This document shows, in pieces, positions 2,417 to 21,200 of a DNA stretch of 64,000 nucleotides (within the stretch, counting starts at the first letter, position 1; every line of letters starts with the position of its first letter). The stretch comes from Formosa sp. Hel3_A1_48 (GTDB taxonomy: Bacteria > Bacteroidota > Bacteroidia > Flavobacteriales > Flavobacteriaceae), in NCBI RefSeq assembly GCF_001735715.1, contig NZ_CP017259.1:1361501-1425500 (forward strand), in the 5' to 3' direction. The notes under the pieces are model-generated. The model saw only the letters and a list, made by a program, of their open reading frames with translations. It did not search any database and was not told the origin of the DNA. The translations under genes were made by a program, and so were the position numbers.

Positions 2417-3661
2417 TTAATCCTGCTTTGTCTTTTTAATTGCTAATCCTATTGCTTTTGCTAAAAGTGGCGGTACTGCATTTCCAATTTGAACCATTTG
2501 TTTCCCTTTAGCACCTTTAAATATAAAATCATCAGGGAAAGATTGTAATCTTGCCATTTCCCTTACTGTTATTACTCTTGGTTCAATAGGATGGATATTT
2601 ACACCTCCGTGATTTTCTTTTATTGTACAACTTGCCTCATTCCAAGGACATTTTTTCCAAGAATCAGAGTAATTATCATAAAGGCTTTTTCCCTCTGCAA
2701 CTAAAGCTAATCTTTCTTTCATATCATCACTATGTTTTGTTCTAACGTGATTAAATTCTTTTTTATCTTTAAGTTTTATTAAATCTTCAATAGCTTCTTT
2801 TGTTGTGATGTAAGAACCTGATTCAAGGAGAGGAGAAGGGTGATGATTTTTTTCCCCTATTCTATTTGCTATAAAAATAATTCGTTCTCTTTTTTGAGGA
2901 ACATAATAATCTGCTGAATTTAAAATAGTTACATTAACATCATAGCCAAGTTTTTTTATATCGTTTTTTATTTTATCCTCAACTTTTCCTTTCAACATTG
3001 AACGTAGCCCTTTAACATTTTCAGCAACAATAAATTCTGGTTGTAATTCTTCAATTATTTCGAGCATATCTTTGTAAAGAGAATTTCTCTCATCTTCCAC
3101 AATTCTACTTCCAGACATACTAAAACCTTGACAAGGAAAACCACCAGAAAGAACAGTTAAGGATTTGCCTTTGAGTTGTTTTTTTATGGTATTTATAAAT
3201 TTGTCTTTTATTTCTCTTTTTGTAATATCTCCTTCAATTAAAGGATGGTTAAAGTTGTGTCGGTAAGTCATGCCAGCTTCTTTAAACCAATCTAAGCCAC
3301 ATACTTGATTAAATCCTGCTAACTCAAAACCTTTAGCCATCCCTCCAGCACCACAAAATAAATCTGCTGAAGTAAAAATACTTTTTTGAGGGGAATCCCA
3401 CTCATCTGAGATATCCATCCAATTTATCAAATCAGTTTTTGTTGATTTGGGTTTTTTCCACTCTAATTCTCTTTCAGGTTCTTTATCATAAATAGATGAT
3501 TTAAGAAAATCTTCTAATTCAGTTTCTGATATGCGGTGTACACCTCCAATTTTGTTTGATTTTAATTTACCAGAGTGAATATATCTTCTCACTGATTTTT
3601 GAGAAACATTTAATTCATTTGCTACATCTTTAATTCTAAGCATTTGATTATTTATACCCAT
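2417..3661 (-). CDS. DNA (cytosine-5-)-methyltransferase with N-terminal excisionase-like HTH
   Basis: This protein transfers a methyl group from S-adenosylmethionine to C5 of cytosine in a specific DNA site. The motifs appear in canonical order: motif I DLFCGAGG (100-107), catalytic loop GGFPCQGFS with Cys177 (motif IV), AENVKG (motif VI, about 214-219), QKRER (motif VIII, 256-260), a target-recognition region, the RLQSFP motif IX and IGNAVPP (motif X). Residues 7-52 form an extra MerR/excisionase-like helix-turn-helix (IKDVANELNVSQKSVRRYI). It is the last gene of a three-gene minus-strand cassette after two nuclease-like genes. The HTH together with three tandem 10-bp repeats touching its start codon suggests that it regulates its own expression; that part is inference. 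Confidence 0.92.
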   Translation of the reverse strand: MGINNQMLRIKDVANELNVSQKSVRRYIHSGKLKSNKIGGVHRISETELEDFLKSSIYDKEPERELEWKKPKSTKTDLINWMDISDEWDSPQKSIFTSADLFCGAGGMAKGFELAGFNQVCGLDWFKEAGMTYRHNFNHPLIEGDITKREIKDKFINTIKKQLKGKSLTVLSGGFPCQGFSMSGSRIVEDERNSLYKDMLEIIEELQPEFIVAENVKGLRSMLKGKVEDKIKNDIKKLGYDVNVTILNSADYYVPQKRERIIFIANRIGEKNHHPSPLLESGSYITTKEAIEDLIKLKDKKEFNHVRTKHSDDMKERLALVAEGKSLYDNYSDSWKKCPWNEASCTIKENHGGVNIHPIEPRVITVREMARLQSFPDDFIFKGAKGKQMVQIGNAVPPLLAKAIGLAIKKTKQD

Positions 3662-3690
3662 ATTTGTCTCTATTTGTCTCTATTTGTCCA
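3661..3690. promoter_or_regulatory. Three tandem 10-bp iterons (TATTTGTCTC) at the methyltransferase start
   Basis: The sequence TATTTGTCTC is repeated twice exactly and a third time as TATTTGTCCA, directly abutting the methyltransferase ATG. The 10-bp period puts each copy on the same face of the helix, as expected for an operator bound by a small HTH protein. The HTH domain fused to the methyltransferase is the obvious candidate ligand. The repeats replace the usual space for a ribosome-binding site. Confidence 0.5.
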
Positions 3691-3703
3691 AATTTAAAAA
3701 TTC

Positions 3704-4357
3704 TCAATTGATTTTAAAACTAAATTCTTTGTTTTCATTCTCAAGAATGTAAATACATTTTGAAATTACTGTTTCATATCTAACGAAATCTACCCCAAGA
3801 CGAAGCTTTTCTACAAAAGCATCGTATGCTTTTTCCTTTAATTTCCAGTGGCATCTGAGGTAAATACTTCGTTCTTGATTGTGAAATGAGTGATGTACAA
3901 TAAATAATCTATTTTGAATCTTATATCTTATACCTTTACTTTGATTCTCATAATAAAAATTAATAATTTTTTTTTCATTATTTGTATTAAAATTTTTTCT
4001 CATAGATTTTGGAACAACTGTTCCCTTAATGTCAAATCTCAAACCATTATTATTGTAGAACACAATATCCCAATCTTGATCTTTTGGATTGGGGTTTGCC
4101 TTAACATTAAATGATTTACAAAATAAATATTCATCTATTCTTGAACATTGCCATATAAACCACCTTCTTCTTAAATAAATTTTTTCATTTTCATTCAAAC
4201 CGCAAATTACTTTTTCTAGTTGACCTATAGTATAACAAGCAAACATATTGATTTTTGAATCAGTTTTGTTATTTTGAATACGGCCCCAGTATAAAGGAAT
4301 ACTTTTTATTAAGTTTTGTAATTCTTTGCCAATTCTAATGTACTCGCTTTCATCCAT
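3704..4357 (-). CDS. Putative PD-(D/E)xK nuclease, restriction-modification accessory or subunit
   Basis: This 217-aa soluble protein lies between a nuclease-like gene and the methyltransferase. Its start is one base past the stop of the upstream gene, so the two are almost certainly co-translated. In the middle, DQDWDIVFYNNNGLRFDIKG (about residues 93-112) has an Asp, a hydrophobic strand and a D-x-K end (DIK), which resembles a PD-(D/E)xK nuclease core. An Arg/Trp-rich stretch precedes it (YLRRRWFIWQ). I do not recognise a named family. It could be a second restriction subunit, a nickase or a specificity factor. Confidence 0.5.
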   Translation of the reverse strand: MDESEYIRIGKELQNLIKSIPLYWGRIQNNKTDSKINMFACYTIGQLEKVICGLNENEKIYLRRRWFIWQCSRIDEYLFCKSFNVKANPNPKDQDWDIVFYNNNGLRFDIKGTVVPKSMRKNFNTNNEKKIINFYYENQSKGIRYKIQNRLFIVHHSFHNQERSIYLRCHWKLKEKAYDAFVEKLRLGVDFVRYETVISKCIYILENENKEFSFKIN

Positions 4358-4358
4358 A

Positions 4359-5786
4359 CTATTTTAAATTCAACAAACTCCAAAAATTAAATCTGAATTT
4401 TAATGAATTTCTTGCAGAATGTACTTGAAACTCACCCAATGAAATACTTTTTGTATTACCATACTTTATTGTAACGCTGCTTTTCTCTGTGAAATCGTTT
4501 GAAAAATCAATTAAGTTTGGTTCAAAATTTATATTTTCTAGCTCTTTTTTAGTAATTAATTTTGAAGAAATATCTTTTTCATTAAGATATAATGACCACA
4601 ATAAATAGTCGCATTCATTTAGAAACCTTACATATTCTTTTAATAAAAGAACTAATTTGTTTTTGTCTTTAACTAAAATTCTGAATTTTTCCTCATTCAT
4701 TTCTCCTTCATACCAACCTTTATGAGCAAAGTGTAAATCAAATGTTTTTGGAGAAGGTTGCCCAATTTCAGGAGGGCAAACTTTGTAAGATTTAGATTTA
4801 TTTGTTTTTAAAGATAGGGTATTGTCCTTTTCTAAATAAAAATCAATTCCGCTTTTACTATTTCCACCTCTTTTTCTTTTCTCTGTTCCAGAATATTTTA
4901 CAGGTTTTAGTGGAAATAAAGTTATTTTATTATTGGTATAATGTTTCTCAAATATTGATAAAATTGACTTATCAGAATTATTTACAAGTCTATCACTATT
5001 TATACCAGGGTCGAGTTTGAAAATATTGCATATTGCTAATTCTGCTGTATCACCTAATATTGAGTTATTTATTACTTTTTCTATTTTTAGTAATTCAGGG
5101 AAATTATCTCTGTGAAGTCTAATCTTATAGCCACTTCTATTTGTGTGAAGTTGTAATTCCATTACTGTTTTCCCTTTATACTTTACAGTATTAGACTCAT
5201 TCCATGCTTGAGTAGTTGGTTTTGTAAAAGTAAAATCTTTAGCATCAAATGTTAAATCTGGTAAATCATCTCTTTTAATTATTTCGTAACTAAAACTTTT
5301 ATTTTTGCGATAAAACCAACAGTTATAATCACTTACCAAAGCATAGTCTATTACGATTGGCATAATTTCAGAAATATTTTCTAAGCAAAATTCTTTAAAG
5401 TTATTTCTGTTTATTTTTTCTTGATGTAAGTGCCCAAAAAAATGATTAAATGTCAAGTCCCCTGCTTGTCCAACAACTTTTGGGGCAAACATTTTTCCAT
5501 TTCCCATAAATGTTTTTATAGAAAATGTTTCTTTATTTTCTAGAAGAAAACTGTGAGGACATCTTGTAATAAATTCAGAAGTGAATTCTTTCGTTTTGTA
5601 TAACGACTTTAAAGGGTTGCTTTTACTTTTAAATATTTCCTTAATAATATTTGATTTTAAGAAAGAGGATAGTAATTTTTTATCAACTCTAGTATTTGAT
5701 ATATTATTTTCTAAATTATATTCATAACAAATAGCATATTGGAAAGTCATTCCAAAGGTTTCAGTATTTATTAAGTTTTTTTTCAA
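4359..5786 (-). CDS. Putative type II restriction endonuclease
   Basis: This 475-aa protein is first in the minus-strand cassette that ends with the C5 methyltransferase. The start is a TTG at 5786, with an in-frame stop just upstream. An ATG at 5750 (residue 13) is possible but would remove the TFGM stretch. The central GNSKSGIDFYLEKDNTLSLK, followed by TNKSKSYK, has the D-(x)n-xxK spacing of a PD-(D/E)xK core, with Ser where Glu or Asp often stands. The sequence around residues 110-150 (KVVGQAGDLTFNHFFGHLHQ) is also distinctive. Position next to a methyltransferase is the strongest evidence of function. Its cleavage site and named family are unknown. Confidence 0.6.
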   Translation of the reverse strand: MKKNLINTETFGMTFQYAICYEYNLENNISNTRVDKKLLSSFLKSNIIKEIFKSKSNPLKSLYKTKEFTSEFITRCPHSFLLENKETFSIKTFMGNGKMFAPKVVGQAGDLTFNHFFGHLHQEKINRNNFKEFCLENISEIMPIVIDYALVSDYNCWFYRKNKSFSYEIIKRDDLPDLTFDAKDFTFTKPTTQAWNESNTVKYKGKTVMELQLHTNRSGYKIRLHRDNFPELLKIEKVINNSILGDTAELAICNIFKLDPGINSDRLVNNSDKSILSIFEKHYTNNKITLFPLKPVKYSGTEKRKRGGNSKSGIDFYLEKDNTLSLKTNKSKSYKVCPPEIGQPSPKTFDLHFAHKGWYEGEMNEEKFRILVKDKNKLVLLLKEYVRFLNECDYLLWSLYLNEKDISSKLITKKELENINFEPNLIDFSNDFTEKSSVTIKYGNTKSISLGEFQVHSARNSLKFRFNFWSLLNLK

Positions 5787-5841
5787 GGCATAAGTTTTTT
5801 AGAATATAATTTTAGTTGATCACAAATTTTTAAAAAATTAT

Positions 5842-6918
5842 TTAATATGCAATATAATTATATTTAGGCATATCCTCTTCTTTCAGTTCAGCTATTTCTA
5901 ATCCTCTTAAGTAGGTTAGGGATACATTAATAGAAGAATGCCCCATAGCTTTCTGTAGCTTGGTTATTGATCCAGTTCTTTTAAAGATTTCTATAGCCCC
6001 AGAGTGTCTAAAAGAGTAGAGTGTTTGTCCTTGTTTAAGAACCTTAGTTTGTTTCTTGTATCTGCTCCATAGCGTTTTAAAATAATCTGGGTTCCTACTA
6101 TTCTGCTCCCCAGTAAAGATATTATCATCTAAACCTTTTGGATGTAAGTAGGGTTTAATAAAACTTGGCACTGGTACAATCCTGTTTCTACCTGACTTAT
6201 TTCTAAACCCAGAAAGTGTAATATAACTTAAGTCACTAGAGAAATCTCCCCAAGTCAATTCCCTTATTTCCCTATGAGGTCTTAGTAAACAACCATAGGT
6301 CAATAAACAACACAAATGAAGGTGTTTATTAAAAGCTTTTATATCCTCTAATACAGTAGCAATATCATCAAAGGGTTTGTGCAAAACAGCCTTGGATTTC
6401 TTACTTTTTATCCCAGTCATTGGATTGCCCTCCATTCCTAAGGATACAGCCTCATTTAGAAGCACGTTTAGATGTCTTTTAAGGGTGTTGTGAGAAACTC
6501 CAGAGCAATACCTTGAAAGAATATTTTTAAGCCCTATAACAGAGAGTTTTGAAGAGTCTATTTCTTGCTTTAAACAGTCAAAACTAAACTGTAACATAGC
6601 CTTGTATTTCTTGGAGTAATCACCAGCTAGTTTTGAATCCAATGCTTGTTTGATATAATCAATGTCTGAGAGTTTACCAATCACAACATTTGTGGATCTG
6701 TAGGATAGTAAAACACCACCGTTTAAAAGATAGCTGTATATCTCAGCAGCTAGAACTTTAGCAATAGATAATCTTTGGTCAAGGGGATAGGAATTAGGAT
6801 CTGTGCTTGAGTTGATTCTCTTGCCATTATAAAGTCTGTATCTCTTACCATTGATGTAAAAGGATACAAATACTTTGTTTAAAGAATCAGTGTGAACTTT
6901 AGGAAATTGTAGTGTCAT
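5842..6918 (-). CDS. Tyrosine recombinase / site-specific integrase
   Basis: The 358-aa protein has an N-terminal Arm/SAM-like core-binding region (about 80-175) and a C-terminal catalytic domain. Visible active-site elements are Arg213 in LLRPHREIREL, YSFRHSG with Arg304 and His305, GHSS with His327, and the nucleophile Tyr336 in SLTYLRG. The first His of the usual HxxR motif is Tyr301, a frequent variant in Bacteroidota. The gene begins about 50 bp from the tRNA-Asn copy, the normal place for the integrase of a tRNA-targeting element. Its last 27 residues or so are almost identical to a pseudogene fragment at 25.8 kb. Confidence 0.93.
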   Translation of the reverse strand: MTLQFPKVHTDSLNKVFVSFYINGKRYRLYNGKRINSSTDPNSYPLDQRLSIAKVLAAEIYSYLLNGGVLLSYRSTNVVIGKLSDIDYIKQALDSKLAGDYSKKYKAMLQFSFDCLKQEIDSSKLSVIGLKNILSRYCSGVSHNTLKRHLNVLLNEAVSLGMEGNPMTGIKSKKSKAVLHKPFDDIATVLEDIKAFNKHLHLCCLLTYGCLLRPHREIRELTWGDFSSDLSYITLSGFRNKSGRNRIVPVPSFIKPYLHPKGLDDNIFTGEQNSRNPDYFKTLWSRYKKQTKVLKQGQTLYSFRHSGAIEIFKRTGSITKLQKAMGHSSINVSLTYLRGLEIAELKEEDMPKYNYIAY

Positions 6919-6966: not shown

Positions 6967-7040
6967 TAATCAATAGCTCAGTTGGTTAGAGCATCTGACT
7001 GTTAATCAGAGGGTCCTTGGTTCGAGCCCAAGAGGAGGAG
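6967..7040 (+). tRNA. tRNA-Asn(GTT)-like sequence with unpaired acceptor stem; probable attR copy
   Basis: D-arm, anticodon arm (TCTGA-CTGTTAA-TCAGA, anticodon GTT) and T-arm (CTTGG-TTCGAGC-CCAAG) are perfect from 6974 on. The 3' acceptor strand is AGGAGGA (7033-7039) with discriminator G. The 5' acceptor strand should read TCCTCCT, but it is TAATCAA, and only three of seven positions pair. The sequence is therefore probably not a working tRNA but the duplicated att half left by insertion of the element. The intact gene should lie at the element's left end. Confidence 0.75.
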
Positions 7041-7046
7041 CAACAC

Positions 7047-7082
7047 AACCCACTAAGTACTTGGTATTCAGTGGGTTACTTA
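7047..7082 (+). terminator. Rho-independent terminator downstream of the tRNA-Asn copy
   Basis: AACCCAC (7047-7053) and GTGGGTT (7071-7077) form a perfect 7-bp stem with a 17-nt loop, followed shortly by a T-rich run. It is placed as a native tRNA terminator would be, which supports 7044 onward being the original chromosomal flank. Confidence 0.6.
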
Positions 7083-7227
7083 TTTTTAGGACATTTCTTA
7101 TCCCATATTTTATCCCAAAAATTTCAGCTAAGGGCCAAAAAAATACACCCCCCTATTGATTTAAAGATCGTTTTCTGTTTTGAGGGTTGGCTGTGGAATG
7201 GATATGTTATCAAATTATTACAGCCAT

Positions 7228-8463
7228 TTATTTAGAAAAATAGTTTCTACAATAGGCTTCATCAAAAATGGGGTAATTTAAGCGCCTTGCCTTGGCTAAG
7301 TAAATATCCAGTATAGCTCTCTTTTTGCCAGAATTATGATAATCTAAAATACTAATGAATAGCTCAATGAAATCTCTACAGCTATTTCTAAACAGCGCTT
7401 CATTTTTAAGTTTAATTAGTTTCTTACTGATATTTGCACCAGATTTTAATTTTACAATAGCATCTCGTAATTCAAACAAACTGTAGTGGTACTCTTGATA
7501 GTAGGGTTTTGAAATTTTATAGTGTGCCGTGGATTCTTGAACAAATTTTAATAATTGTACCTCACCAGCTAGAATGCAAGCAAATAGAAATTCATATAGA
7601 TAATCAATTTTATTTTTCTTTTTCGCAATTTTTTTTATGAACTTTTGTGTGTAGATTTCTTTATGTTTAAGGTTCTTTTTCAAAATTTCAACTCCCTTAT
7701 ATCGGCCATATAAAATTGGATGAATCTGTTTTATGTTTAGAGCTGATGTAACGAGTCTTACGGGTTGATTATTTAAAAATTTACGAAGCTCCATAATACA
7801 AGCTGTAAAAAGTGTTTGCTCTTTGTTAGTTGTTTTATTAGCTAAATTTTTACAATAAGTGCCATAATTACCATTCAAGCTTGAAATATCTACAAAGGAA
7901 TTAAAAATAGTTGGCGTAAAATATTTTGTCGATATGAACTCTTGAATTGGTGTTTCCATCTGCTTAAATACAGGGCCCACACAATTTCCTAAATATAGTA
8001 TTTCTGAATAATTATAACGCTTTGGATCTAGTAAAGGAGAATTAAAAACTAATTTTAAAATTTCAACATTTTTTGCCACAGTCAGGCCACCAATAAGTGT
8101 GATTAACAATTCCAAACAACTTTCAGGACTTATAAACTCATCATTCATTAATTCCAATGCATATTTAGGATCAATCACTATACTATTGTAAATCTTTTGA
8201 TGAATGTCCCAGTTTTTCTTTTGAGGATAGGCCGCACAAAAATCTACATAAGAGCTATAACCAACATATATGGAAAGGGTGTTCAACGTACGACTGTTTG
8301 GCTTTGTACCCTTTACAACTCCATAAAATCTCCTTAGTGTATTATAACTTAGGTCAATTCCTGAGTCTATTAATATCATATTGGATAACCGCACACAATC
8401 TCCACGGTTTTTAATTTTAAAACCACATTTTTGAGAGACATTATTTTTAAGCTGGTAAAGCAT
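7228..8463 (-). CDS. 411-aa protein with putative N-terminal DNA-binding domain and helical C-terminal region
   Basis: The first 75 or so residues contain a pattern that recurs in uncharacterised Bacteroidota proteins: LSYNTLRRFYGVVKGTKPNS, then TLNTLSIYVGYSSYVDF. It looks like a small helical, possibly DNA-binding, domain. The remaining 330 residues are helical and TPR-like in character, without signal peptide or membrane segments, so the protein is cytoplasmic. It is transcribed away from the lipoprotein-caspase-papain-channel cluster. A pair of 11-bp direct repeats lies 15-35 bp upstream of its ATG. A role as regulator of that cluster is inferred from the layout, not from a recognised family. 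Confidence 0.6.
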   Translation of the reverse strand: MLYQLKNNVSQKCGFKIKNRGDCVRLSNMILIDSGIDLSYNTLRRFYGVVKGTKPNSRTLNTLSIYVGYSSYVDFCAAYPQKKNWDIHQKIYNSIVIDPKYALELMNDEFISPESCLELLITLIGGLTVAKNVEILKLVFNSPLLDPKRYNYSEILYLGNCVGPVFKQMETPIQEFISTKYFTPTIFNSFVDISSLNGNYGTYCKNLANKTTNKEQTLFTACIMELRKFLNNQPVRLVTSALNIKQIHPILYGRYKGVEILKKNLKHKEIYTQKFIKKIAKKKNKIDYLYEFLFACILAGEVQLLKFVQESTAHYKISKPYYQEYHYSLFELRDAIVKLKSGANISKKLIKLKNEALFRNSCRDFIELFISILDYHNSGKKRAILDIYLAKARRLNYPIFDEAYCRNYFSK

Positions 8464-8477
8464 AAACTTTTATTAAA

Positions 8478-8498
8478 TGTACTAAATTTGTACTAAAT
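8478..8498. promoter_or_regulatory. 11-bp-spaced direct repeat TGTACTAAAT, candidate operator
   Basis: TGTACTAAAT occurs at 8478-8487 and again at 8489-8498, separated by one T, so the copies sit on the same helix face. It overlaps a -7-like TACATTTA of the leftward 411-aa gene and lies upstream of the rightward -7 box at 8516. A related repeat with the same spacing is found upstream of the giant surface-protein gene at 15215. Confidence 0.5.
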
Positions 8499-8515
8499 TA
8501 GTAGATTATTTTATT

Positions 8516-8523
8516 TAAGTTTG
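8516..8523 (+). promoter_or_regulatory. -7 promoter box TAAGTTTG for the caspase cluster
   Basis: TAAGTTTG matches the Bacteroidota -7 consensus TAnnTTTG exactly and lies 24 bp before the first ATG of the cluster. A TTG at 8488-8490 could be the -33 element, but its 25-bp spacing is longer than the usual 17-23. A poor -33 would fit a promoter that needs an activator bound at the adjacent direct repeats. Confidence 0.45.
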
Positions 8524-8546
8524 ATATTCTACCAATTTATACCTAG

Positions 8547-8672
8547 ATGAGAACATTACTAGCACTCTCTGTTATATTAATCTTCGCTTGTAGTAATCAT
8601 GATGACAGCAAATCACCAGCTCAATCATTTTTAGAGATACATTTCATATATTTGAAGTATAAGCCAATTTAA
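8547..8672 (+). CDS. 41-aa lipoprotein-like peptide upstream of the caspase gene
   Basis: ATG at 8547 starts a 41-codon frame. It begins with a lipoprotein signal (MRTLLALSVILIFACSNHDD: basic start, hydrophobic core, lipobox IFAC with Cys15), then an Asp/Ser-rich tether. It stops two bases before the caspase ATG, so translation is likely coupled. The part after the tether is short and hydrophobic. The peptide may be a genuine small lipoprotein or the 5' stub of a longer lipoprotein gene truncated by an old rearrangement. Confidence 0.5.
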   Translation: MRTLLALSVILIFACSNHDDSKSPAQSFLEIHFIYLKYKPI

Positions 8673-8674
8673 TT

Positions 8675-11236
8675 ATGAAAAATATTTTCATTTTATTTTT
8701 TTCAATTGCACACTTTTTCTTGTTAAGTCAAGAAAAAGAAAAAAGACTTGCATTGGTCATGGGGAATGCCAATTATGAAAAAGGGGAGTTAAACAATCCT
8801 GTAAACGATGCAAGACTCATAGCCTCTACATTAGACTCTCTTGAATTTGATGTCATATTAAAAGAAAATTTGGCAACACGAAGAGATATGACAAATGCAA
8901 TAAGAGAATTTGGAGCAAAAAGAGAAAATTATGATGTGGCTTTTGTTTATTACGCTGGGCATGGAATTCAAATTGACGACGAAAACTTTCTACTTCCAAC
9001 AAAAGAAAATTTTTTTTCTGAAGAAGATGTTCTTGATTATGCAGTTAGTGTAGAAAAAATTATGAGAATTCTAAAATCTAAGGATAATCAGGTTAACATC
9101 CTTATTCTAGATGCATGTAGAGACAATCCTTTTGAATCCAGCTGGAATAATACACGCTCATTGAACGGCAGAGGACTTGCTAAAATACAGCCCCCAACAG
9201 GTTCTCTTATAGCATTTTCAACAGACTCTGGACAAACTGCTCCCGACGGGAACGGGGATAACAGTATTTATACTTCAAGTTTATCTAGAAATATGAAAAT
9301 CGATGACATTTCTATTGACCAAGTTTTCAGGAATGTTAGAGCTGAGGTTTTAGATCAAACAAATGGACAACAAAGACCTTTAGAATCAACTCAACTCGTT
9401 GGAAAATCTTTTATTCTAAAAAAAACGTTCTCATTGTATGATTCAACAATTGAAGAAATAATTAATTTTTGTAACACTAAAAAACAAAGTGGAGGACTAG
9501 AAGAAGTCATCGAGATTCTTAACACATCTGCAAATTTTTATAGATTACAAAAAAAATATAAGGAAGAAATTTATTTAAGAGAAAAACTAATTAATGATTA
9601 TGTCTTTAGTCCTCTCTCAGCTGAGGCTCCTAAATATTTCTCCCTTGAAATTAGGAACTTGAGTAGTACGGATATAACCTACGAAAAGTTTAAAGAATCG
9701 TTCCAAATTGAGGAATATAATTTATTTATCAATAATCTAAAACTGCTGTTGAGTAATGACAAAATAGAATATGAACCTTACATTGACAAATCCTATTACA
9801 TTTCACTTTACAATGCTTTTTTGACATCTTTTAATATTGTTGATAACAACCTTTTTTCATTAGAAGAATTGTTAACTTTTCCAAAAATTGATTTTGATAT
9901 GAAATTCTTGGACAGTGGATTATCAAATTTTTGGTTTTTAAAAAAAGAACATTTTGATTGGAGAACTAATCCTTGCTCTGAAAATTTTTTTTTAGTTGAT
10001 GATTTCGATGATTTAAACAGCATACTTGTGGAAGAATCGAGATCTTTAATTTCAAAATTTGACAGCAATTTTTATATAGATATCAATGAAAAAAATAAAG
10101 AATTAGTAAACTTTACTAAAAAACAATATCCCGATATCAAAGTTGAAGTTGATCGAATGAAAGCTGACCATATTGTGTATGTAAATACTAAAAACTCTAA
10201 GGAGTTACTAGAAGAGCTTAATGAAACATTTAGGGACTATAATGATTTTTTTAAAGAGCCTAGTTTTGATTATAATCGATATATTGATTTAACTTCATTT
10301 GGATATTTCATTTTAGCCTTAGAAACTCAAATTTCAAGAGGAGTATTCTACTCTACGCTTAACGAAGATGATTTATCTCATTACATTTCGTTGTATATAA
10401 ATTCAAGAAAATATGTTGAATTATTGCTGGATAAGTTTAGTGAAATTTCATTTGAACAAAAAACAAAAATTGAGAACTATAATAACTTTGTTGTTAAATC
10501 GAAGTTCAGGCCTAATTTTTTCGTTCAAGAGACGAATTATTTGTTACCAACTGATGATTTTGAAAAATTTCAAAAAAGGAAAGAGACTATTTCTGAGGCA
10601 TATAGATGGAGAATTTCATCATGTGACAATTTTCTTTATTTAAAAAGTGAAATAAAGAAAAAAAATTATACAATTCTGGAAGACAAAGAATTGTTTAGCA
10701 ATTGGAGTTTATTTGGTCATGAGTTATTGTACAAACTTTACAATGGCTATCTTAAAAACAGCGATTTTTTTAGCACATCTGACAGTGCGTTTAAACAAAA
10801 GTTACTTGACTACGAGAGAGAATATAAACTGAATTACATAAATAGAGTTTGGGTTATAAATTACCTCAAACTTATTAGAGGGGCTTCATTAAAGAACAAT
10901 GGTGAAATCTTTTGGAGTTATGAGCTGTTGACTTCTTTGAAACTAATGGAGAATTTAATAACAACAAAATTTGGTGCCAAAGATGATATTTTGTTTTTAA
11001 GATATGTTAATTTACACATAAAATTAATCATTTCTTCCGCATCAAACTTTTGCTACAATCCCTTTGAGTTGAGTGAAGACTTAAAGTCTATTGAAGAAGA
11101 GAACAGAAACAGTCAAAACTTTTTATTAAATGCTTATTTAGACGATCTTTACAAGTATTTTTATCAAGATTCGCCGTACCATAAAAATCTTTTAAACCAT
11201 TTTCAAGAAAAAGAAATATCAGATTTGTTCAAATAA
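8675..11236 (+). CDS. Exported caspase-like cysteine protease (peptidase C14) with long C-terminal region
   Basis: The 853-aa protein has a signal peptide (residues 1-19) followed by a complete caspase-fold domain (about 23-250). The catalytic dyad is visible: His96 in VYYAGHG and Cys148 in ILDACRD. The strand beginning RLALVMGNANY and the loop with SFSTDSGQTA-like sequence (AFSTDSGQTAPDG) are typical of bacterial C14 proteins, which cleave after basic or acidic residues. Residues 260-853 are a helical region I do not recognise, rich in Phe, Tyr, Asp and Lys, without membrane segments. It is followed after 23 bp by the papain-like gene and then the channel gene. Export to the periplasm is unusual compared with cytoplasmic caspases of known defence systems. 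Confidence 0.85.
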   Translation: MKNIFILFFSIAHFFLLSQEKEKRLALVMGNANYEKGELNNPVNDARLIASTLDSLEFDVILKENLATRRDMTNAIREFGAKRENYDVAFVYYAGHGIQIDDENFLLPTKENFFSEEDVLDYAVSVEKIMRILKSKDNQVNILILDACRDNPFESSWNNTRSLNGRGLAKIQPPTGSLIAFSTDSGQTAPDGNGDNSIYTSSLSRNMKIDDISIDQVFRNVRAEVLDQTNGQQRPLESTQLVGKSFILKKTFSLYDSTIEEIINFCNTKKQSGGLEEVIEILNTSANFYRLQKKYKEEIYLREKLINDYVFSPLSAEAPKYFSLEIRNLSSTDITYEKFKESFQIEEYNLFINNLKLLLSNDKIEYEPYIDKSYYISLYNAFLTSFNIVDNNLFSLEELLTFPKIDFDMKFLDSGLSNFWFLKKEHFDWRTNPCSENFFLVDDFDDLNSILVEESRSLISKFDSNFYIDINEKNKELVNFTKKQYPDIKVEVDRMKADHIVYVNTKNSKELLEELNETFRDYNDFFKEPSFDYNRYIDLTSFGYFILALETQISRGVFYSTLNEDDLSHYISLYINSRKYVELLLDKFSEISFEQKTKIENYNNFVVKSKFRPNFFVQETNYLLPTDDFEKFQKRKETISEAYRWRISSCDNFLYLKSEIKKKNYTILEDKELFSNWSLFGHELLYKLYNGYLKNSDFFSTSDSAFKQKLLDYEREYKLNYINRVWVINYLKLIRGASLKNNGEIFWSYELLTSLKLMENLITTKFGAKDDILFLRYVNLHIKLIISSASNFCYNPFELSEDLKSIEEENRNSQNFLLNAYLDDLYKYFYQDSPYHKNLLNHFQEKEISDLFK

Positions 11237-11259
11237 TAATTTATAAAGTTAATCAAAAT

Positions 11260-12534
11260 ATGATTGCTATTAATACAATAAAAAAGAATCTATTTGTGCT
11301 TCTATTTGTATCAACACAAGCCTTTAGTCAAGGTTTGATACTATGCAATACAGAAAAAAAAGCTATGTATCCAAAGGTACCTGCTGGATGGTTAGTAGTT
11401 TGCGACACTCTACCCTCATCTCATAGCCTTGAAAAATTTGTTCCCCCAGTAATAGAACAAAATGGTGATACGTCTGTAGGTTTTGCTTCTTTATATTATG
11501 CTTTATCCACAATGTATAATATAAAGTTTGGAATTACGGATTATAATGAGAAATATGCGCACTCTTTTGACCCTTATTTTATTTATTTATTTCAAAATAA
11601 TGTTAAAGAAAACGGATACAATGGATTGTTTATGTCTTCAGTTCTCGACAATTTATCTGAGGTCGGAGCTAAGAAGCTATTCTACCCACCATATACAGAT
11701 AGCAGCGCTAAAATCGATCCAATTCAAATTAAAAATGCTTTAAGTTACACTACGCCTTATAGTATAAACAAATGGTATTATTATGAAACAAAAAACACGC
11801 CCAGAAACAGTTTAATAAACATTATCAAAAAAAACTTATGCAATAACACTCCAATAATAACGGGTTTTGAATTTGTTAATTCAATGATTTCGTATTCCTC
11901 AGGGAATTTATCCGGAGTAAAAAGTGATGGGTTATGGAGTCCTGATCATTACACTAATGGGGTTGAAGGACATGCTCTTTGCGTGGTTGGTTACAACGAC
12001 AACAAATTTGGTGGTGCATTTCGAATTGTCAATAGTTGGGGAAAAAATTATGGTGATAATGGATATATGTGGCTAAAATATGATGACTTTGCAATGTCTA
12101 TTAAAGAAGTTTTTTTTCTTGAGTTAAATCAAAATATTAAGGATTTGACCCCAGCAGTTATAGAAACAAAAAGCTACAAAAGATTCAGCTTTAAAAACGA
12201 TGTAAACGACTACAACACTTACGAAGGTCAATACCTTTTGAACGGAGTTAATGGTTACGGTATTTTGAGTAATAATGAAGAAAATAGTTATTATATTGGC
12301 AAATTTGATAATGCTAAAATGACTGGCTTTTTTCTTATCTTAGATAATGATGGTATTTCTTCAGCCAATGCTGTAGATGGTAATCTTCAAAGTTTAGATA
12401 AACTTGGTTTTGCAAGTGATGAAAGTATAACTGAAACACAATTTGAAGCCAAAAAATATTTTAAGAAACTTGGAGATAGATTATCAATTAGAAAAGCTAA
12501 TTCAAGTAGAAATTCATCAAAATCAAAAAAATGA
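11260..12534 (+). CDS. Exported papain-fold (C1A) protein lacking the catalytic cysteine
   Basis: The 424-aa protein has a signal peptide (about 1-24) and a papain-like domain (about 58-290). The oxyanion-hole Gln67 is present in PPVIEQNGDTS. The catalytic His238 stands in GHALCVVGY and Asn258 in IVNSWGKNYGDNGY. In the segment that should read QGxCGSCWAF the sequence is QNGDTSVGFAS: the nucleophile position is Val73 and the following Trp is Gly. It is therefore predicted to be a catalytically dead binding protein. The C-terminal part (about 310-380) has MORN-like YEGQY...GVNGYG strands. Its stop overlaps the start of the channel gene by four bases, indicating tight co-expression. Confidence 0.78.
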   Translation: MIAINTIKKNLFVLLFVSTQAFSQGLILCNTEKKAMYPKVPAGWLVVCDTLPSSHSLEKFVPPVIEQNGDTSVGFASLYYALSTMYNIKFGITDYNEKYAHSFDPYFIYLFQNNVKENGYNGLFMSSVLDNLSEVGAKKLFYPPYTDSSAKIDPIQIKNALSYTTPYSINKWYYYETKNTPRNSLINIIKKNLCNNTPIITGFEFVNSMISYSSGNLSGVKSDGLWSPDHYTNGVEGHALCVVGYNDNKFGGAFRIVNSWGKNYGDNGYMWLKYDDFAMSIKEVFFLELNQNIKDLTPAVIETKSYKRFSFKNDVNDYNTYEGQYLLNGVNGYGILSNNEENSYYIGKFDNAKMTGFFLILDNDGISSANAVDGNLQSLDKLGFASDESITETQFEAKKYFKKLGDRLSIRKANSSRNSSKSKK

Positions 12535-13604
12535 TTAGAGTATTATTTTTTCTTTTGGCTTCATCGTTTATCTACGCACAGGATATTGATTATAAGTATT
12601 TCGGTAAGCCATATTACCCAGAAGAGTATTTAGGCAAGGGCGATAGTCTAAAATGGCCAATTATTTTTGATATTTCAATTGATATTAAAGATATAAAAGG
12701 GCTAGATGAAAAGAAAGATTATTTTTTTAGCAAATTGGTTGTAAGCTCCTTTTCAGAGTACAACGCACAATACACAACCAAAGCAGGAGTTACCATTGAT
12801 CTTTTGCCTGAGGAGTTTTTTGGATTACATACAAAAGAAAACAGTTTTACAACCAATATAGAGTCACAACCAAATTACTACCAAAAAGAAAATTACGACT
12901 ATTTATTTTACGATAACTTTATTTTAAAAAGTGTTTCTCTTGTAGAAGCACCATTTGATCACAATTGGAATTTGACTAATTTTCCATTTGACACTCAAAA
13001 ACTAAGGTTAAAATTTATAACCAAAGTTGACACTTCAATAATTAGGCTTAGACCCAGTCACGTTTTCAAAAGTACATTCAACAAGTCTATGGAGAACTTA
13101 AAGGAAGGTTTTAATGTTGAATCTATTGAATACAACTACTCCTATAACGTTGATGAGAGTGATCTCATAAAAATATCACCTAAAGTTACAAGAGGACTAG
13201 TAACAGAAACTTTTGAAGTCATTTTAAATTTAGACCGACAAGGCTCTTGGATTTTTTTAAAGCTTTTCATGGGTGGAATTTTATCATTTTTTATATCATG
13301 TATGATATTTCTAATTCCAAAATATAAGGAATTAGAATCTAAAGTCTCACTTGGAGTTGGTGCAATTTTTGGCGCAATAGGTAACCGTTACTTTGTTGAT
13401 TCGAGTCTGGAAAATGTGCAAATATTTACAAAAGCAGATGCGGTAAGCAACCTCATTATTTTTATGGTTATTTTTAATATTTTAGTCATGATATTACAAA
13501 ATAGCAAATATGAATTTTTGTCATTTTTTCAATCCACATGGAATAGTCTAGTGTATTCTGTTTATGCGTTTACAATTTTACTATTTACAATTCTTTTGTG
13601 GTAA
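12531..13604 (+). CDS. Prokaryotic pentameric ligand-gated ion channel (Cys-loop receptor family)
   Basis: The 357-aa protein has a signal peptide (MIRVLFFLLASSFIYA), a beta-rich extracellular domain (about 20-238) and four membrane helices at about 241-263 (M1), 272-290 (M2), 304-323 (M3) and 336-357 (M4). The signature of the family loop is WNLTNFPFDTQKLRLKF (146-162), with the FPFD core and no flanking cysteines, as in bacterial homologues. The M2 stretch with GAIFGAIGNRYFVD is like that of bacterial members of the family. In the inner membrane its sensor domain would face the periplasm, where the neighbouring caspase and pseudo-papain should be. Ligand and ion selectivity cannot be read from sequence. 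Confidence 0.8.
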   Translation: MIRVLFFLLASSFIYAQDIDYKYFGKPYYPEEYLGKGDSLKWPIIFDISIDIKDIKGLDEKKDYFFSKLVVSSFSEYNAQYTTKAGVTIDLLPEEFFGLHTKENSFTTNIESQPNYYQKENYDYLFYDNFILKSVSLVEAPFDHNWNLTNFPFDTQKLRLKFITKVDTSIIRLRPSHVFKSTFNKSMENLKEGFNVESIEYNYSYNVDESDLIKISPKVTRGLVTETFEVILNLDRQGSWIFLKLFMGGILSFFISCMIFLIPKYKELESKVSLGVGAIFGAIGNRYFVDSSLENVQIFTKADAVSNLIIFMVIFNILVMILQNSKYEFLSFFQSTWNSLVYSVYAFTILLFTILLW

Positions 13605-15029
13605 TTAATCAGCATTAAATAAAAAGTATTTACCTCTGTCGGTAATAATAAATTTATTTTTTTCCTGTGTGGTTAAGCTTTGTTTTTTTATTAAGTCATC
13701 TGGAATTTTTATAATATAAAGATCCTTGTTTTGAAATACTTTTATTTGATTAATAGATGAAGATTTCAATTTTGAATCAGCAATTTTCTTAAAATTATTA
13801 AAAACTAAATCATCATACGACAAGCCAAGTTTCTCGAGTGTATTATTATAATCTGATATGTTCTTTTTTGAAGTTTTTGATATGTTCAACTTGCTTATTA
13901 TACTTCCTTTTTTTGCTATTTTATTGATTTTTTTTGATGATTTTTCATCAATAATCATATTTATGACGTCCATGTCAACCAATATTTCTGGTTCCAGTTT
14001 CCAATCATATTTTTTTAGATTTTCAAGAAATTCATTTCTAGATTTAAAATCAGGCAATAGTAAAAACTCAGCAACCATGGCGTTCTGTGTTGCCAGTTGG
14101 TATTTTGAGTCTAAAAGTTGAGCATTTTTAAACTGTTTCAAAGAATAGCTAAACATATCCTTTGGGTCTTCGTTAAACTTGCTAGATCTAGTTTTGTTGA
14201 CCTCCAACCTTGTTGTTTGATCTAAGCTTACAGGAAACAAAAGGCTATTTATAGGAGAATTAGAAATCGAAACTCCATATTGTAAGTAGGTCAAACCTAA
14301 GTTGTTATATATTTCTCTTGAATTGAAATTATTTCTTAAAATAAACTCATAACAGTATTTCGCAAGCTCATAATTTTTGCCAATCAATAAAATGTTTCCA
14401 ATTTCAAATATTGAAGCGAGATCATTTGCAATATCAATTTTAGAATCAATTATCTCAAGCCTTTCATTGAAAGTTGGATAGCCTGGAATTTCTTTTCTAA
14501 TATTATAGGCCTCATACACAGCTTCTATTGTTTGTTTTGCATATTCCAAAGTATTATATCCAGAAATCATCCCATAAAACCCCGCAAAAAGATCTGCCTG
14601 ACTCTCTGATAACTTTCTTTGGTTTTTTGAATAAATTGGACTGTTATCATCAATGAATTCTCCAATAGAACTTGAATATCCAAGACTTGTGTTGGTCATC
14701 CATGAATGATTTAAATAGTGATGTGCCAATTCATGAGCCAATATGTAAGCAATTTTATCATCAAAATTTTTATCATAACAAAATAGCTCTATTAATTCTA
14801 TTTCAATTGTAACAGTGCTATCGCTAAGATAAACGCCATTATTTTTTTCAAGTGAAAACTCAAGAGAAGGGGGGTAGATGCTTTTATTTCCAATTCCCTC
14901 AATTAAATTATCAAATATTTTTTCGACTCTAGTTTCACAGTTTTGCCCATAGGCAAGAACAGAAAATAAAGTTAAGGCTAGTTTTAACAATCTCTTTTTG
15001 ATAAAATCAAAAGGATTTTTTCTTTCCAT
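13605..15029 (-). CDS. Exported M48-like zinc metalloprotease with helical repeat tail
   Basis: A hydrophobic N-terminal segment (about 12-28) ending AYG-Q suggests export. The zinc-binding motif is HELAHH (His99, Glu100, His103) and the third ligand is Glu142 in SESQADLFAG, the arrangement of M48-type peptidases. Residues 205-330 contain TPR-like helices (AKYCYEFILRNN, IYNNLGLTYLQYG). The C-terminal 150 residues are Lys/Ser-rich and unassigned. The gene is convergent with the ion-channel gene with no bases between the two stop codons, and divergent from the giant surface protein. No terminator separates it from the channel gene, so antisense overlap of transcripts is likely. Confidence 0.8.
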   Translation of the reverse strand: MERKNPFDFIKKRLLKLALTLFSVLAYGQNCETRVEKIFDNLIEGIGNKSIYPPSLEFSLEKNNGVYLSDSTVTIEIELIELFCYDKNFDDKIAYILAHELAHHYLNHSWMTNTSLGYSSSIGEFIDDNSPIYSKNQRKLSESQADLFAGFYGMISGYNTLEYAKQTIEAVYEAYNIRKEIPGYPTFNERLEIIDSKIDIANDLASIFEIGNILLIGKNYELAKYCYEFILRNNFNSREIYNNLGLTYLQYGVSISNSPINSLLFPVSLDQTTRLEVNKTRSSKFNEDPKDMFSYSLKQFKNAQLLDSKYQLATQNAMVAEFLLLPDFKSRNEFLENLKKYDWKLEPEILVDMDVINMIIDEKSSKKINKIAKKGSIISKLNISKTSKKNISDYNNTLEKLGLSYDDLVFNNFKKIADSKLKSSSINQIKVFQNKDLYIIKIPDDLIKKQSLTTQEKNKFIITDRGKYFLFNAD

Positions 15030-15275: not shown

Positions 15276-18200
15276 ATGAAAAACTTCTTTTCCTTTACGC
15301 TTTTGTTCTTGATGTCTTCGAACATCTTTTTTTCACAAAATATATCAATTGCAGCAGACAATACTATATTAAACGAAGGTTCTACATTAACATTGACTGC
15401 GTCTCTTGATGCTGTGTCAACAGAAAAAATTTTCTTACCAATTTCTACTTCTGGATCAGCTACAGTGGACATTGATTATGCCATAGACTTCCCTGCGCTG
15501 GGAGATGAAACGCTAATTGCCAATTTTATTAACAGCTATGAATATTTTGACATATTACAAGACGGGCGTTATGTGCTTTTGAACAATAATGATTTGTTAG
15601 TTTATGATTCTTCAACTGGCTCATCTGAAAATATAGTATTATCTAGGAATTATGAAAATATTCAACTTAAAGGTAATACAATTTACACAAGGTATAATCA
15701 AAACTCTATCTATGAAATTGATATTACAGACTTATCTTCTGTAATAGAAACAGAAATAGCAACTCTCCCCGCCAACAATTTCATGGATAAAGAGTTTAGT
15801 ATTGAAGGAGATAATATACTGTACAATACTTTTGACAGCGAAAATAGTATTTATAAATTATATAAAAAGTCAGGGAATGATGAACCTGAACTAATTCACA
15901 CTTTTTCAGATACTGGCTACATGTGGGGTTTACAGCCAATACTTTTAAATGATAGAGTTTTCATGATTCAGACTTACAACAATGTTTATGAACTTGTTGA
16001 TGATAATTTTGTTTTGCAGCCTCAAATGGTTAATCAAAATGGTGAAGGATTAGACCTTGAACAAGGTAAGTATAACACCCATAACGGCAGGTTTTATGCT
16101 AAGGCAATTGTCAACGGCACAGGCGGCTATCATGTTCATGAAATTGATTTGGAAACCGGTATTGGATCTAAGTTAGATTATGAGCTGTCTTCAGAAATTG
16201 TTGCAATTAAAGATTTTTCCTTCTTATCAAATGGCAACTTAGTTTTGTCAAATTATATAAATGCAAATCCGGAATATGGAATATATTCATATCAACTTAA
16301 TCTGGCAATAAAAATTGCAGCAGGAGACACCACAGGTACGATTACTTTTACAGCCACTGATGATGAAAGTGATGAAGATGATGAGACGATAATTATAACA
16401 CCAGGGACTCCAACAAACGGTACATTAAGTGATAGTTCAGATATTGTAGCCACTATAGTAGACAACGACGATGCTGCTGTAGTGACATTTGTATTGTCCT
16501 CAGAAACTCTTGCTGAAGATGCAACATCATCAATTACTTTAACAGCAACGGCTACACCAGTATCAGGTGTTGATGTTACGATTCCGTACACCCTTTCTGG
16601 GACAGCAACAAATGATGAGGACTACAGCGTTAGTGACCCAGAGATTGTTATCCCTGCAGGTTCAGAGTCTGCCAGTATTACAATAAGTGCAATAAATGAT
16701 ACTGATGTTGAGGTTATTGAGACGATAGTTTTTGAGCTAGGAGCTCTTACCAATGGGACTACAGATACAACAGACATTACACTAAACTTAGAAAGTGAAG
16801 ACGACCCAGAGGTATCTTCAATAGTAGCTGCTCCAACATCATTTGTAGAGGGGACTTCAACTACAGTGACAGCAACAATTAGTACTGCAGCGTCAAGGGA
16901 TCTTGATATTCCACTAACGCTAAGCGGTACAGCCGTAAGTGAGCTAGACTACACAACAACCTTTGCCTCCCAAGGCCAAGAAACTAAAGTTTATGACTCA
17001 GGCGGTGAGAATTCTAATGATAATTTTGGAGATTTCAGAGTACTTTCCGATGGTAGATATGGGTTTGTAAACGGGAACAATCTTAGGATATACGATCCAG
17101 AGACTGAAGATTTGGAATACATAAATTTAGACAGAGGTTATAATGAAACACAATTTTCAGAGACAGAGAATACTTTTTACGGAACAAACAATCAACAAAT
17201 TTGGAAAATAAACATACTAGAAGACAACTCTACTGTAGAGACATCGCACTTAGATTATACTGGCTATAATCTTGAGGGTGGATTTTCTTTACACGGGGAC
17301 AAGCTTTATTATATTTTAGAGTCGAGCGGACTTCGTTCTGGTTATATAAAAGACGGAGCTAACGACCCGGTTTTAATGTTTGAGTCCAATGAGTGTTGTT
17401 ATTCACCAATCTTAGTAGGAGACAGATTGATTAATTTCCGCTGGGAAAGATGGAGTGAAGTTGTTAATGGAAATTACCAAGGAGAAAATTATTTGAGCAC
17501 CGTTGATGGTGAAGCAGTAAGTATAAACTCAATTTCTGTATATCCCTCTACATCAGTAGTTTATAATGACGATTTGTATATAAGTTTAGCTTTGACAGGC
17601 CAAGGTCAACGAATTTATAAACTAGATATTGATAACAATGATTTAATTACCGTGGCTTACACCCCAGGGGATGACATTGTCTCAGGCAACAACTTCTCTC
17701 ATTTTGATTTTGATTCAATGGGTAATTTGTTGGTTTATTCTCAAGATAATTCAAATGGCAATAGGTCAGTTTATTCGTATCAATTTGCGCCTTCAATAAA
17801 AATTGCAGCAGGAGACACCACAGGTACGATTACTTTTACAGCCACTGATGATGAAAGTGATGAAGATGATGAGACGATAATTATAACACCAGGGACTCCA
17901 ACAAACGGTACATTAAGTGATAGTTCAGATATTGTAGCCACTATAGAAGACAACGACGATGCTGCTGTAGTGACATTTGCATTATCTTCAGAAACTCTTG
18001 CTGAAGATGCAACATCATCAATTACTTTAACAGCAACGGCTACACCAGTATCAGGGGTTGATGTTACGATTCCGTACACCCTTTCTGGGACAGCAACAAA
18101 TGATGAGGACTACAGCGTTAGTGACCCAGAGATTGTTATCCCTGCAGGTTCAGAGTCTGCCAGTATTACAATAAGTGCAATAAATGATACTGATGTTGAG

Positions 18201-21200
18201 GTTATTGAGACGATAGTTTTTGAGCTAGGAGCTCTTACCAATGGGACTACAGATACAACAGACATTACACTAAACTTAGAAAGTGAAGATGAGCCAATCT
18301 CATCACTAACTGCTACTAACCCTGACATGAACGAAGGCGAATCAACTTCTATTACTCTAGAAATTGACGAACCTACTTCAAGGGATGTAATTGTTCCTCT
18401 TCAATTATCAGGTTCTGCAACATTTAATATTGATTACACCACAGCATTTGAAACCCAAGGTGAAGAGACATTCCTAATGAATGTAAATAATAATTACAAT
18501 AATATGGTAGTTTTAAGCGATGGGAGAGTAGTCTTTTTAGATTCTTCGCAAGTTTATGTATACGATATAGCAACACAAACTCAACAGCAATATCAATTAG
18601 ATAATTATGCGAATTATATCAATATTTCAGGGGACACAATATATTTGAAAAGAAACGACAGAATTTCCAAATTCAATATTGATCAGTTTAATTTTTCAGA
18701 CGACGGAACCAATCAAATAGAAACAATACTAATCGCTGGATCTGATTTATTAGGATCAAATGATTCTTTTCAGGGTAATAATATTGTTGCTGAGGGAGAC
18801 ACTGTGCTTTATCAAATTTATGATTGGCCTAATGGGTATAAAATTTATAAAAAACAATCTGATAATGATGCTGAACTAATATATGAAGGGGATCAATATG
18901 CTCAAAATTTACTTTTGTTTAATGGAAGAACATATAGTTTTAATAATTCTGGGGTAAGAGAAATTTATAACAATAGTTATACAAATTATATTAATTATGA
19001 AGACATTAATTTTTACCAAATTATTCCTTACAACAACCAGGTTTATGCTTTAGTTGAAGATAATTCTGAAAACGAAAGACAAGTTGTAAAACTTGATATT
19101 GAAAATGACATTGTAAATTCAATTGGCAGCCAAGGCAGCGTAGAATTAATGCCGTACGTCCTAGGTGAAAACCATGATTTTATCTACAGATTTGGATTTG
19201 ACAATTTCGACAACTTAATATTGCTTAACAGAACATTTGAAAATGACAATTATACTTATGGCTTATTTTCATATCAATTATTTCCAGAGATTTTAATTAG
19301 CGCTGGACAAACATCAGGAACATTTACTTTTGAGTCCATTGATGACAATTCGTTTGAGGATGATGAGACAATTATTGTCACACCAGGTGAAATACAGAAT
19401 GCTTCATTTACAAATCAAGACCCCTTGACCCTAAGTATTATTGACGACGATAACCCCCCATTAATTACTTTTGAGTTATCGTCAGACTCTATAGTTGAAA
19501 ATTCTGAATTTAGTGTAAATTTAACAGCTACCGCAGACGTTCAATCAGGAGTAGAAATTACTATTCCATTAATAATGTCAGGAACTGCAGATTTAGATGA
19601 ATATGAGCTAAGTTCGGAGTCAATAGTAATACCACCAAATGCAACTTCTGCTAACATTACCATAAGTACCTTTGGTTTTGATGACGATGAAGTTGAAATT
19701 GCAGAGTCTATAATTTTTACTTTCGGGGAAATTTCAAATGCTGTAACAGAAACACCATCAATATCTTTATCATTATTAAGTGAAGATGATCCAACTATTA
19801 ATGATGTACAAGTTTTACAGACCGAACTAATTGAAGGGGAGTCTACAGAGGTCACAGTTACTTTGAGTGCCCCGTCATCAAATGATGTTTATCTTCCACT
19901 AGTATTAGGCGGTAGTGCAACAAATGAGATTGATTATACTACTGGATTTGAAGCTGAAGGGGAAGAAACTTTAATAGGCCAACTAACCAACAACGATTTT
20001 AATACTTATGGAATTTTAGAAGACGGAAGGCATGTCTTTTTGAACGGCAATCAAATAAGAGTTATGTCTGCCGATGCAACCACAGAAAGCCAAGCGAATT
20101 TAGACTCTTATTATTCATATATGGTTATTGAGGGAAATACAATATACGTTGCTAATAACGATAGAATTGCCACAGTTGATATTACGGATATATCTTCTAG
20201 CCAAGCGGTTGTTAATCAGGTTGTTCCTCTAAGTAACGATCAAGGCTTCTCAGTTCACAGTAGTTTTGATGTTGAAAATGGTAAAATTGTTTATGAGGTT
20301 TATGTTAATTCATTAGGTACTAGACAGATTTGGCTACTTGAAAGTTTAGAAGAAAACCCTATTTTACTTGCATCGTCTTTGAATTGTTGCTTTAGGCCAG
20401 TTCTAGTTGATGGGAATGTTTACAGAGTAGATTCATGGCGATATCGACAGTTATTTAGTGATGGAGAACAATCCTCCGATATTAATTACAGTGGAGGTGG
20501 TATTGACACGAACAGAGATATAGTTGTAAAAGACGGTATTTTGTATGGGTTCGACAGCTCTCAATCTGGTGATGTAATAGTGAGGCTTGATTTACAAGCA
20601 GGTGATGGAACTGTTTCACAGGCGTTTGATGTTGATATTTCTGAAGATATAAATAACACAAGGTCTTTTGGTTTTAGTCCAGATGGAAATATTGTTTTGG
20701 TTAATGGTGTTATTGAAAACAATGAGGTAATTACTCAATTAAATTCATACCTGCAATCAATACAAATAAAAATTAATGCTGGAGCAATTTCGGGCTCTAT
20801 AACTGTTGATACTTTTGATGACGACTCCTATGAGTTTGATGAAACAATTAGTATTGCCTATGGAACTCCAGCCAATGTTAACATTGGTTCAATAGACGTT
20901 CCAAACATTACAATATTAGATAATGATACACCACCAACAGTAGCATTTGAGCTTTCAAATGAAACTATTGTAGAAGGTGCCTCTGAATCAGTTACATTAA
21001 CCGCAACTTTATCTGAAGTCTCGGGTTATGATGTTACTGTACCGTTTACAATGTCAGGGACAGCTGGCGCTGATGAATATGCGGTTTCATCTTTATCAAT
21101 TTTTATACCTGCCGGTAACGAATCTGGAGCTGTAGAGGTTTCAACCACTGAATTTGATGACGAAGAGGTTGAAATATTAGAGACAATAATATTTAATATT

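Follow-up and report, generated by a model that had tools for sequence, protein, structure and literature searches.

In prokaryotes, caspase homologues (metacaspases and orthocaspases) have been surveyed, and the accessible part of that survey reports many metacaspases in predicted operons, 23 with other proteolysis domains (PMC3501461). The same part contains the word papain 0 times and names neither a papain partner nor a pentameric channel. For bacterial pentameric channels, the available portion of Tasneem et al. (PMC549065) describes gene neighbours that encode ligand-binding proteins, Cache domains and a Na+/H+ symporter, proposes chemotaxis-type roles from the ligand-binding-protein neighbourhoods, and mentions proteases or caspases 0 times. 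Here we describe a locus of Formosa sp. Hel3_A1_48 in which genes for a caspase-fold protein (peptidase family C14), a papain-fold protein (family C1) and a pentameric ligand-gated ion channel subunit follow one another on one strand. The genome is a single contig of 2.0 Mb, and the stretch analysed (the window, 64 000 nucleotides) covers its positions 1361501-1425500. The C14-C1 pair is conserved across Bacteroidota, Chlorobiota and Verrucomicrobiota, in either gene order; the channel would be an addition of this lineage.

The run occupies positions 8547-13604 of the window, all on the + strand, in the order lipoprotein-like peptide, caspase, papain homologue, channel. Gene coordinates and spacing given in an earlier sequence-only reading of this DNA were reproduced from the open reading frames: the peptide and the caspase are 2 bp apart, the caspase and the papain homologue 23 bp, and the papain stop codon and the channel start codon share 4 bp (AATGATT). 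On the left, 83 bp separate the peptide from a regulator-like gene; on the right, the channel gene directly abuts (0 bp) a metalloprotease gene. We agree, by eye, with the export- or lipoprotein-type N-termini assigned to the cluster products. The 41-residue peptide (8547-8672, +) carries LIFAC-S close to its N-terminus and has no Pfam family match at E ≤ 1; it is an open frame only and may not be a gene.

The exported caspase-fold protein (853 residues; 8675-11236, +) matches PF00656 with E = 6.1e-37 (128 bits versus a cut-off of 21.4). Its His96/Cys148 dyad (codons 8960-8962 and 9116-9118) had been read as intact, and both residues indeed occur in all 30 C14 domains aligned. The alignment comprised the window and 29 of 72 matches; the window's own match and short, redundant, stop-bearing or unknown-residue-bearing sequences were excluded. 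All 10 PDB sequences that matched the caspase at E ≤ 0.001 are MALT1, which also tops the fold search (∼ 29% identity across ∼ 130 residues). This paracaspase, the nearest solved relative by sequence and fold, is a cytoplasmic animal signalling protease, whereas the Formosa protein is an apparently exported bacterial one. The structural model is confident for approximately residues 21-150; beyond this it is of low confidence and mostly helical. With the prokaryotic metacaspases and orthocaspases the protein shares the C14 domain with its His-Cys dyad and the operon setting. In contrast, its C-terminal 609 residues are nearly unique, with a match in only one of 298 other genomes that spans 65 residues.

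The exported papain homologue (424 residues; 11260-12534, +) matches PF00112 with E = 1.9e-9 (38.4 bits versus a cut-off of 20.7). In a 100-row C1 alignment (79 named-genome loci, 20 family loci and the window, a few genomes being present twice) the columns of His238 and Asn258 are invariant, and the nucleophile column holds Cys in 98 rows, Thr in one and, in the window, Ser72 (codon 11473-11475). Since 98 of the 99 aligned relatives have Cys, the nucleophile has been substituted, not deleted, which refines the sequence-only reading of a papain-fold protein without its nucleophile. The protein lacks the catalytic Cys-His-Asn set of family C1, and on its sequence we class it as a papain-fold homologue and not as a cysteine peptidase. 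A Pfam scan gave no DUF4384 match, and the C-terminal part appears MORN-like by eye, without Pfam support. In another locus, L098, the gene of a caspase (25-2388) that carries ten MORN repeats neighbours a C1-DUF4384 gene.

The association of C14 and C1 genes seen at this locus recurs in two samples, which overlap (at least L119 and L129 of the named-genome loci with L046 and L044 of the family loci). In the family sample, papain matches were found in 28 of the 298 other genomes; 20 of the 28 were fetched, and in 7 of these 20 neighbourhoods (L040-L046) a C14 gene lies directly downstream of the papain gene. The printed N-termini of the C14 proteins in these seven loci look exported. Partial domain scans confirmed C14 in L040 and L041, and C1 plus DUF4384 also in L040; L037-L039 have M48-type genes instead of C14. 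Named genome contigs yielded 447 papain relatives. Among the best 80 of these, ranked by similarity and partly redundant, 52 of 79 loci have a same-strand C14 gene no more than 400 bp away (31 downstream, 21 upstream, the latter in the gene order of the window). By comparison, of 946 other genes in these loci, pair flanks included, 40 are equally close to a C14 gene. Of the remainder, 6 loci have C14 within 5 kb (Ignavibacteria among them), 16 gave none, 5 are cut by contig ends and one has no papain frame. The family count is the less biased of the two: seven of the ten search-alignment rows from other genomes already came from pair loci, and Polaribacter, Lutibacter and their near relatives make up most of the top of the named-genome list. 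The C14, C1 and channel profiles were built from loci of this analysis and may overlook remote members.

The 52 paired loci include Flavobacteriaceae, Saprospiraceae, Microscilla, Emticicia, Bacteroidales, Prevotella and Chlorobiota, together with Pelagicoccus and Opitutales, which we take to belong to Verrucomicrobiota. Architectures vary, and in the scanned cases the caspase bears WD40-type, Ig-type or MORN repeats. The window pair has same-strand adjacency in common with the others and differs from them in three respects: their papains keep the Cys that is Ser here, those scanned carry the DUF4384 not matched here, and the window has the added channel. In three loci of Ignavibacteria type (L126, 7812-13589; L127; L130, 7863-16915), CHASE2 and an exported-looking protein of 313-320 residues lie ahead of the C1 gene, and C14 follows farther downstream; this arrangement is possibly a larger envelope-sensing set.

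The third gene (357 residues; 12531-13604, +) is established, as a gene, as that of a pentameric ligand-gated ion channel subunit by sequence and fold. The single sequence was of limited use: Pfam gave one sub-threshold match, to an unrelated family, TIGR00860 (LIC-type) matched weakly (E = 0.0034), and the PDB gave nothing relevant. A six-row family profile, in contrast, matched 113 PDB sequences at E ≤ 1, and all 60 listed are pentameric channels (best GluCl, 8.3e-6). Foldseek with the channel model likewise returned the pentameric channel family in all 50 matches listed. The pentameric fold proposed by the sequence-only reading is therefore present by both profile and fold search. The model itself is of low confidence (mean predicted local distance difference test score, pLDDT, 57.6) and consists of a β-rich domain and four membrane helices; the sequence has a signal-like N-terminus, a β-rich sensor domain and four helices from approximately residue 240. 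The Pro-loop-type P152-F153-D154 is invariant in all six channel rows. One remote Bacteroidia channel relative that was scanned matched Neur_chan_LBD (E = 1.3e-7), and a close relative scanned beside it had no domain match. The profile and fold match and the build of sensor domain plus four helices are shared with GLIC, DeCLIC and sTeLIC. The start of M2 reads E-S-K, versus P-A-R in GluCl. GLIC is the basis for reading a Glu at the M2 start as cation selectivity, and by this analogy the channel is probably cation-selective, with Glu at approximately position −2′. Three channel relatives (L011, L012 and L014) have an additional N-terminal stretch, TPR-like by eye, ahead of the sensor domain.

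The neighbours of the Formosa channel are protease-fold genes and not those described for bacterial channels in the accessible part of PMC549065. No such pair was found in the part of PMC8195603 (caspase and effector systems) available to us, and PMC4795631 lacks the terms looked for. In the open-licence literature, which leaves most subscription papers outside, we found no description of a C14-C1 pair or of a pentameric channel joined to one; the sequence-only reading likewise knew of no described bacterial system with this set.

We tentatively read the operon as a coupled envelope module, that is, the recurrent C14-C1 pair plus a channel tuned by it, although our confidence falls a little short of even. 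The reading is prompted by the tight spacing and the stop-start overlap, the recurrence of the C14-C1 pairing above the background given earlier, the intact caspase dyad, the loss here of a papain Cys that nearly all aligned relatives keep, the identity of the channel and its E-S-K at the M2 start. A periplasmic protease module founded on the pair would have gained a probably cation-selective channel in this lineage. We infer that the caspase is the working enzyme of the module; the papain homologue appears to have turned from an enzyme into a regulator, adaptor or substrate. The sensor domain of the channel would lie in the periplasm, and the channel would pass cations. To tune channel opening, the protease pair would either cleave the sensor domain or produce or remove a ligand, and an envelope signal would in this way change the membrane potential. 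The sequence-only reading had a periplasmic signal acting through the pseudo-papain on the caspase and on channel opening, with depolarisation or death as the outcome, which stays hypothetical. A stricter version, a protease-controlled channel of the neurotransmitter-receptor type in which the altered papain steers the caspase, the caspase cuts the sensor domain or makes the ligand, and proteolysis leads directly to depolarisation, seems to us unlikely.

Several observations weigh against such a module. The C-terminal parts of both the caspase and the papain homologue are unlike those of the widespread pairs; hence the window pair may not belong to the same functional unit, and it would function as they do at most by analogy. 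Ser72 might still be catalytic. The functional coupling of channel and proteases would rest on one operon, since the channel is joined to a C14-C1 pair in one genome only among those examined. Channel matches occurred in 7 of the 298 other genomes of the family sample (two of them weak) and in 17 of 294 other genomes of the class sample. A C14 or C1 gene was found in none of 6 neighbourhoods of close channel relatives (one a weak, contig-cut match) and in none of 17 stretches around remote ones, several stretches being cut by contig ends (L255, L261, L267, L268, L013 and L014). The channel is also absent from all 10 sibling genomes (in part incomplete, 73-99%), and when genome contigs were searched with only the channel as query, nothing was found. 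Thus the co-occurrence proposed in the sequence-only reading survives for the adjacency of C14 and C1 and fails for the channel, whose relatives are scattered; a conserved C14-C1-channel trio is not supported. Finally, the site appears to gather foreign cargo (see below), so the adjacency of the channel may be chance.

The strongest rival builds on these points. It holds that a functional exported C14-C1 pair stands beside an unrelated passenger channel, the overlap being a chance product of the compaction of a 2-Mb genome, at a site that collects genes. The scattered channel relatives, the siblings without a channel, and the other genes that accompany the regulator and flank in sibling G268 all favour it, whereas the 4-bp same-strand overlap with the papain stop and the 23-bp gap upstream favour one transcript. 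We consider this explanation credible, if somewhat improbable.

The cluster stands next to a tRNA-Asn integration site. A 70-bp tRNA-Asn repeat (6974-7043, +) forms the right end of a 12.7-kb integrative element; its identical copy belongs to the intact tRNA, which is situated beyond the window, 12.7 kb upstream. Between the repeats are a tyrosine recombinase (integrase; 5842-6918, −; PF00589, E = 3.4e-8), a restriction-type gene and, by eye, a cytosine-methyltransferase-like gene; the last, together with a type II restriction profile match (E = 2.1e-20), falls in 2417-5786 (−). The cluster begins 185 bp past the right repeat, and the idea that it is inside the element was therefore rejected. 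Six siblings that were fetched have the same tRNA after an rseP-type gene (by eye), and in each the contig breaks off within ∼ 2.4 kb, which fits a variable site. In G268 the same tail leads into an orthologue of the regulator (76%), and the genes beyond differ; more copies of the tail lie close by, as do integrase remnants and a fragment of a tRNA 3′ end. Fragments of the tRNA-Asn 3′ end and its ∼ 190-bp tail occur in G268 (L236, contig C12) at 3150-3258, 5821-5999, 10332-10431 and 17126-17290, in L203 at 3482-3521 and in the window at 6974-7235. They separate gene groups in the sibling's locus, and one copy enters the regulator orthologue as in the window. They look like scars of successive site-specific insertions at an accretion hotspot, and we read the tRNA-Asn site as one that exchanges cargo. 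In genus g95 (L011, 4630-8235; L012, 5309-8913) a channel relative is located two genes past an rseP-type gene. An rseP-type gene and tRNA-Asn likewise lie upstream of the window cluster, separated from it by the integrative element, and the shared place may reflect ancestry or chance.

Channels of another superfamily were considered as partners of the pair. The 80 papain loci contain 13 Ion_trans matches, of which 11 immediately follow C14, and this at first suggested that the pair goes with any channel. The 273-residue Ion_trans type was rejected, as it is present in 112 of 120 family genomes, including the window's own (position 325 kb); being near-universal, its adjacency to C14 looks incidental. 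A second type, of 240 residues, neighbours an Obg-type GTPase gene, so named by eye, in 9 of the 11 loci retrieved for it. In L037 (2399-8840) and L039 (2421-8905) it belongs to a one-strand run of C1 papain, small protein, M48-Sel1, Ion_trans, CHASE2 and small protein, in which the Ion_trans and CHASE2 genes overlap. The run shares with the window exported C1, M48-type and channel genes in one series; its channel, however, is of the voltage-gated (Ion_trans) superfamily, and no C14 was found there. The two genomes are related and the run is probably one evolutionary event, so as a link between proteases and channels it is suggestive only.

Marine flavobacteria feed on polymers and protein, and the cluster could be imagined as a nutritional or sensory set whose exported proteins process extracellular peptides while the channel responds to one of the products, for example an amino acid. 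The chemotaxis-type roles proposed for bacterial channels in the accessible part of PMC549065 point the same way. Against this, we recognised in the cluster neither a transporter gene nor one for a ligand-binding protein, and loss of the papain nucleophile is ill-suited to simple digestion; we hold such a set to be improbable.

We found no support for a role in defence. An anti-phage or conflict system, with the caspase triggered by infection and the channel depolarising the cell, is highly improbable, for although a PADLOC profile matches the caspase (E = 9.5e-16) and the neighbouring element has restriction-type genes and an integrase, the papain homologue and the channel have no PADLOC match at E ≤ 1, the cluster lacks the recognised defence partner of known caspase anti-phage systems, its products look exported whereas the described caspase defences, to our knowledge, act inside the cell, and no relative of the channel or caspase was found in viral contigs. 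The viral contigs gave 11 distant papain-type matches, and plasmids a single channel match of 22% identity.

The divergent regulator-like protein (411 residues; 7228-8463, −), which the sequence-only reading counted in the cluster, has no Pfam or NCBIfam match and was rejected as a member, since its orthologue in G268 faces unrelated genes. The intergenic stretch (8464-8546) is a possible control region with two adjacent TGTACTAAATT copies at 8478-8499, one of which is retained in the sibling's orthologous stretch. The convergent, exported M48-like metalloprotease (474 residues; 13605-15029, −) does contain the HExxH motif assigned to it (HELAH, starting at residue 99), with ESQAD farther on; its M48 score is 18.3 versus a Pfam cut-off of 20.3. 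It may take part in the module, although nothing found ties it to the operon, and its match in G268 (49%) has an internal stop and lies among unrelated genes. Two partial M48-like relatives, one with an internal stop, are present there (L280/L281, contig C11) among MoxR-type, VWA-type and other genes (by eye). Right after the cluster (15276-25673, +) follows a protein of 3465 residues that has long internal repeats and a sorting domain for type IX secretion.

As far as we have searched, the C14-C1 pair was previously undescribed; it appears to be a protease unit widespread in bacteria, and it offers a handle on what exported bacterial caspase homologues do. Only in the window did we find a pentameric channel in a C14-C1 operon, and this case would make a bacterial link between proteases and a channel directly testable in one 5-kb stretch.

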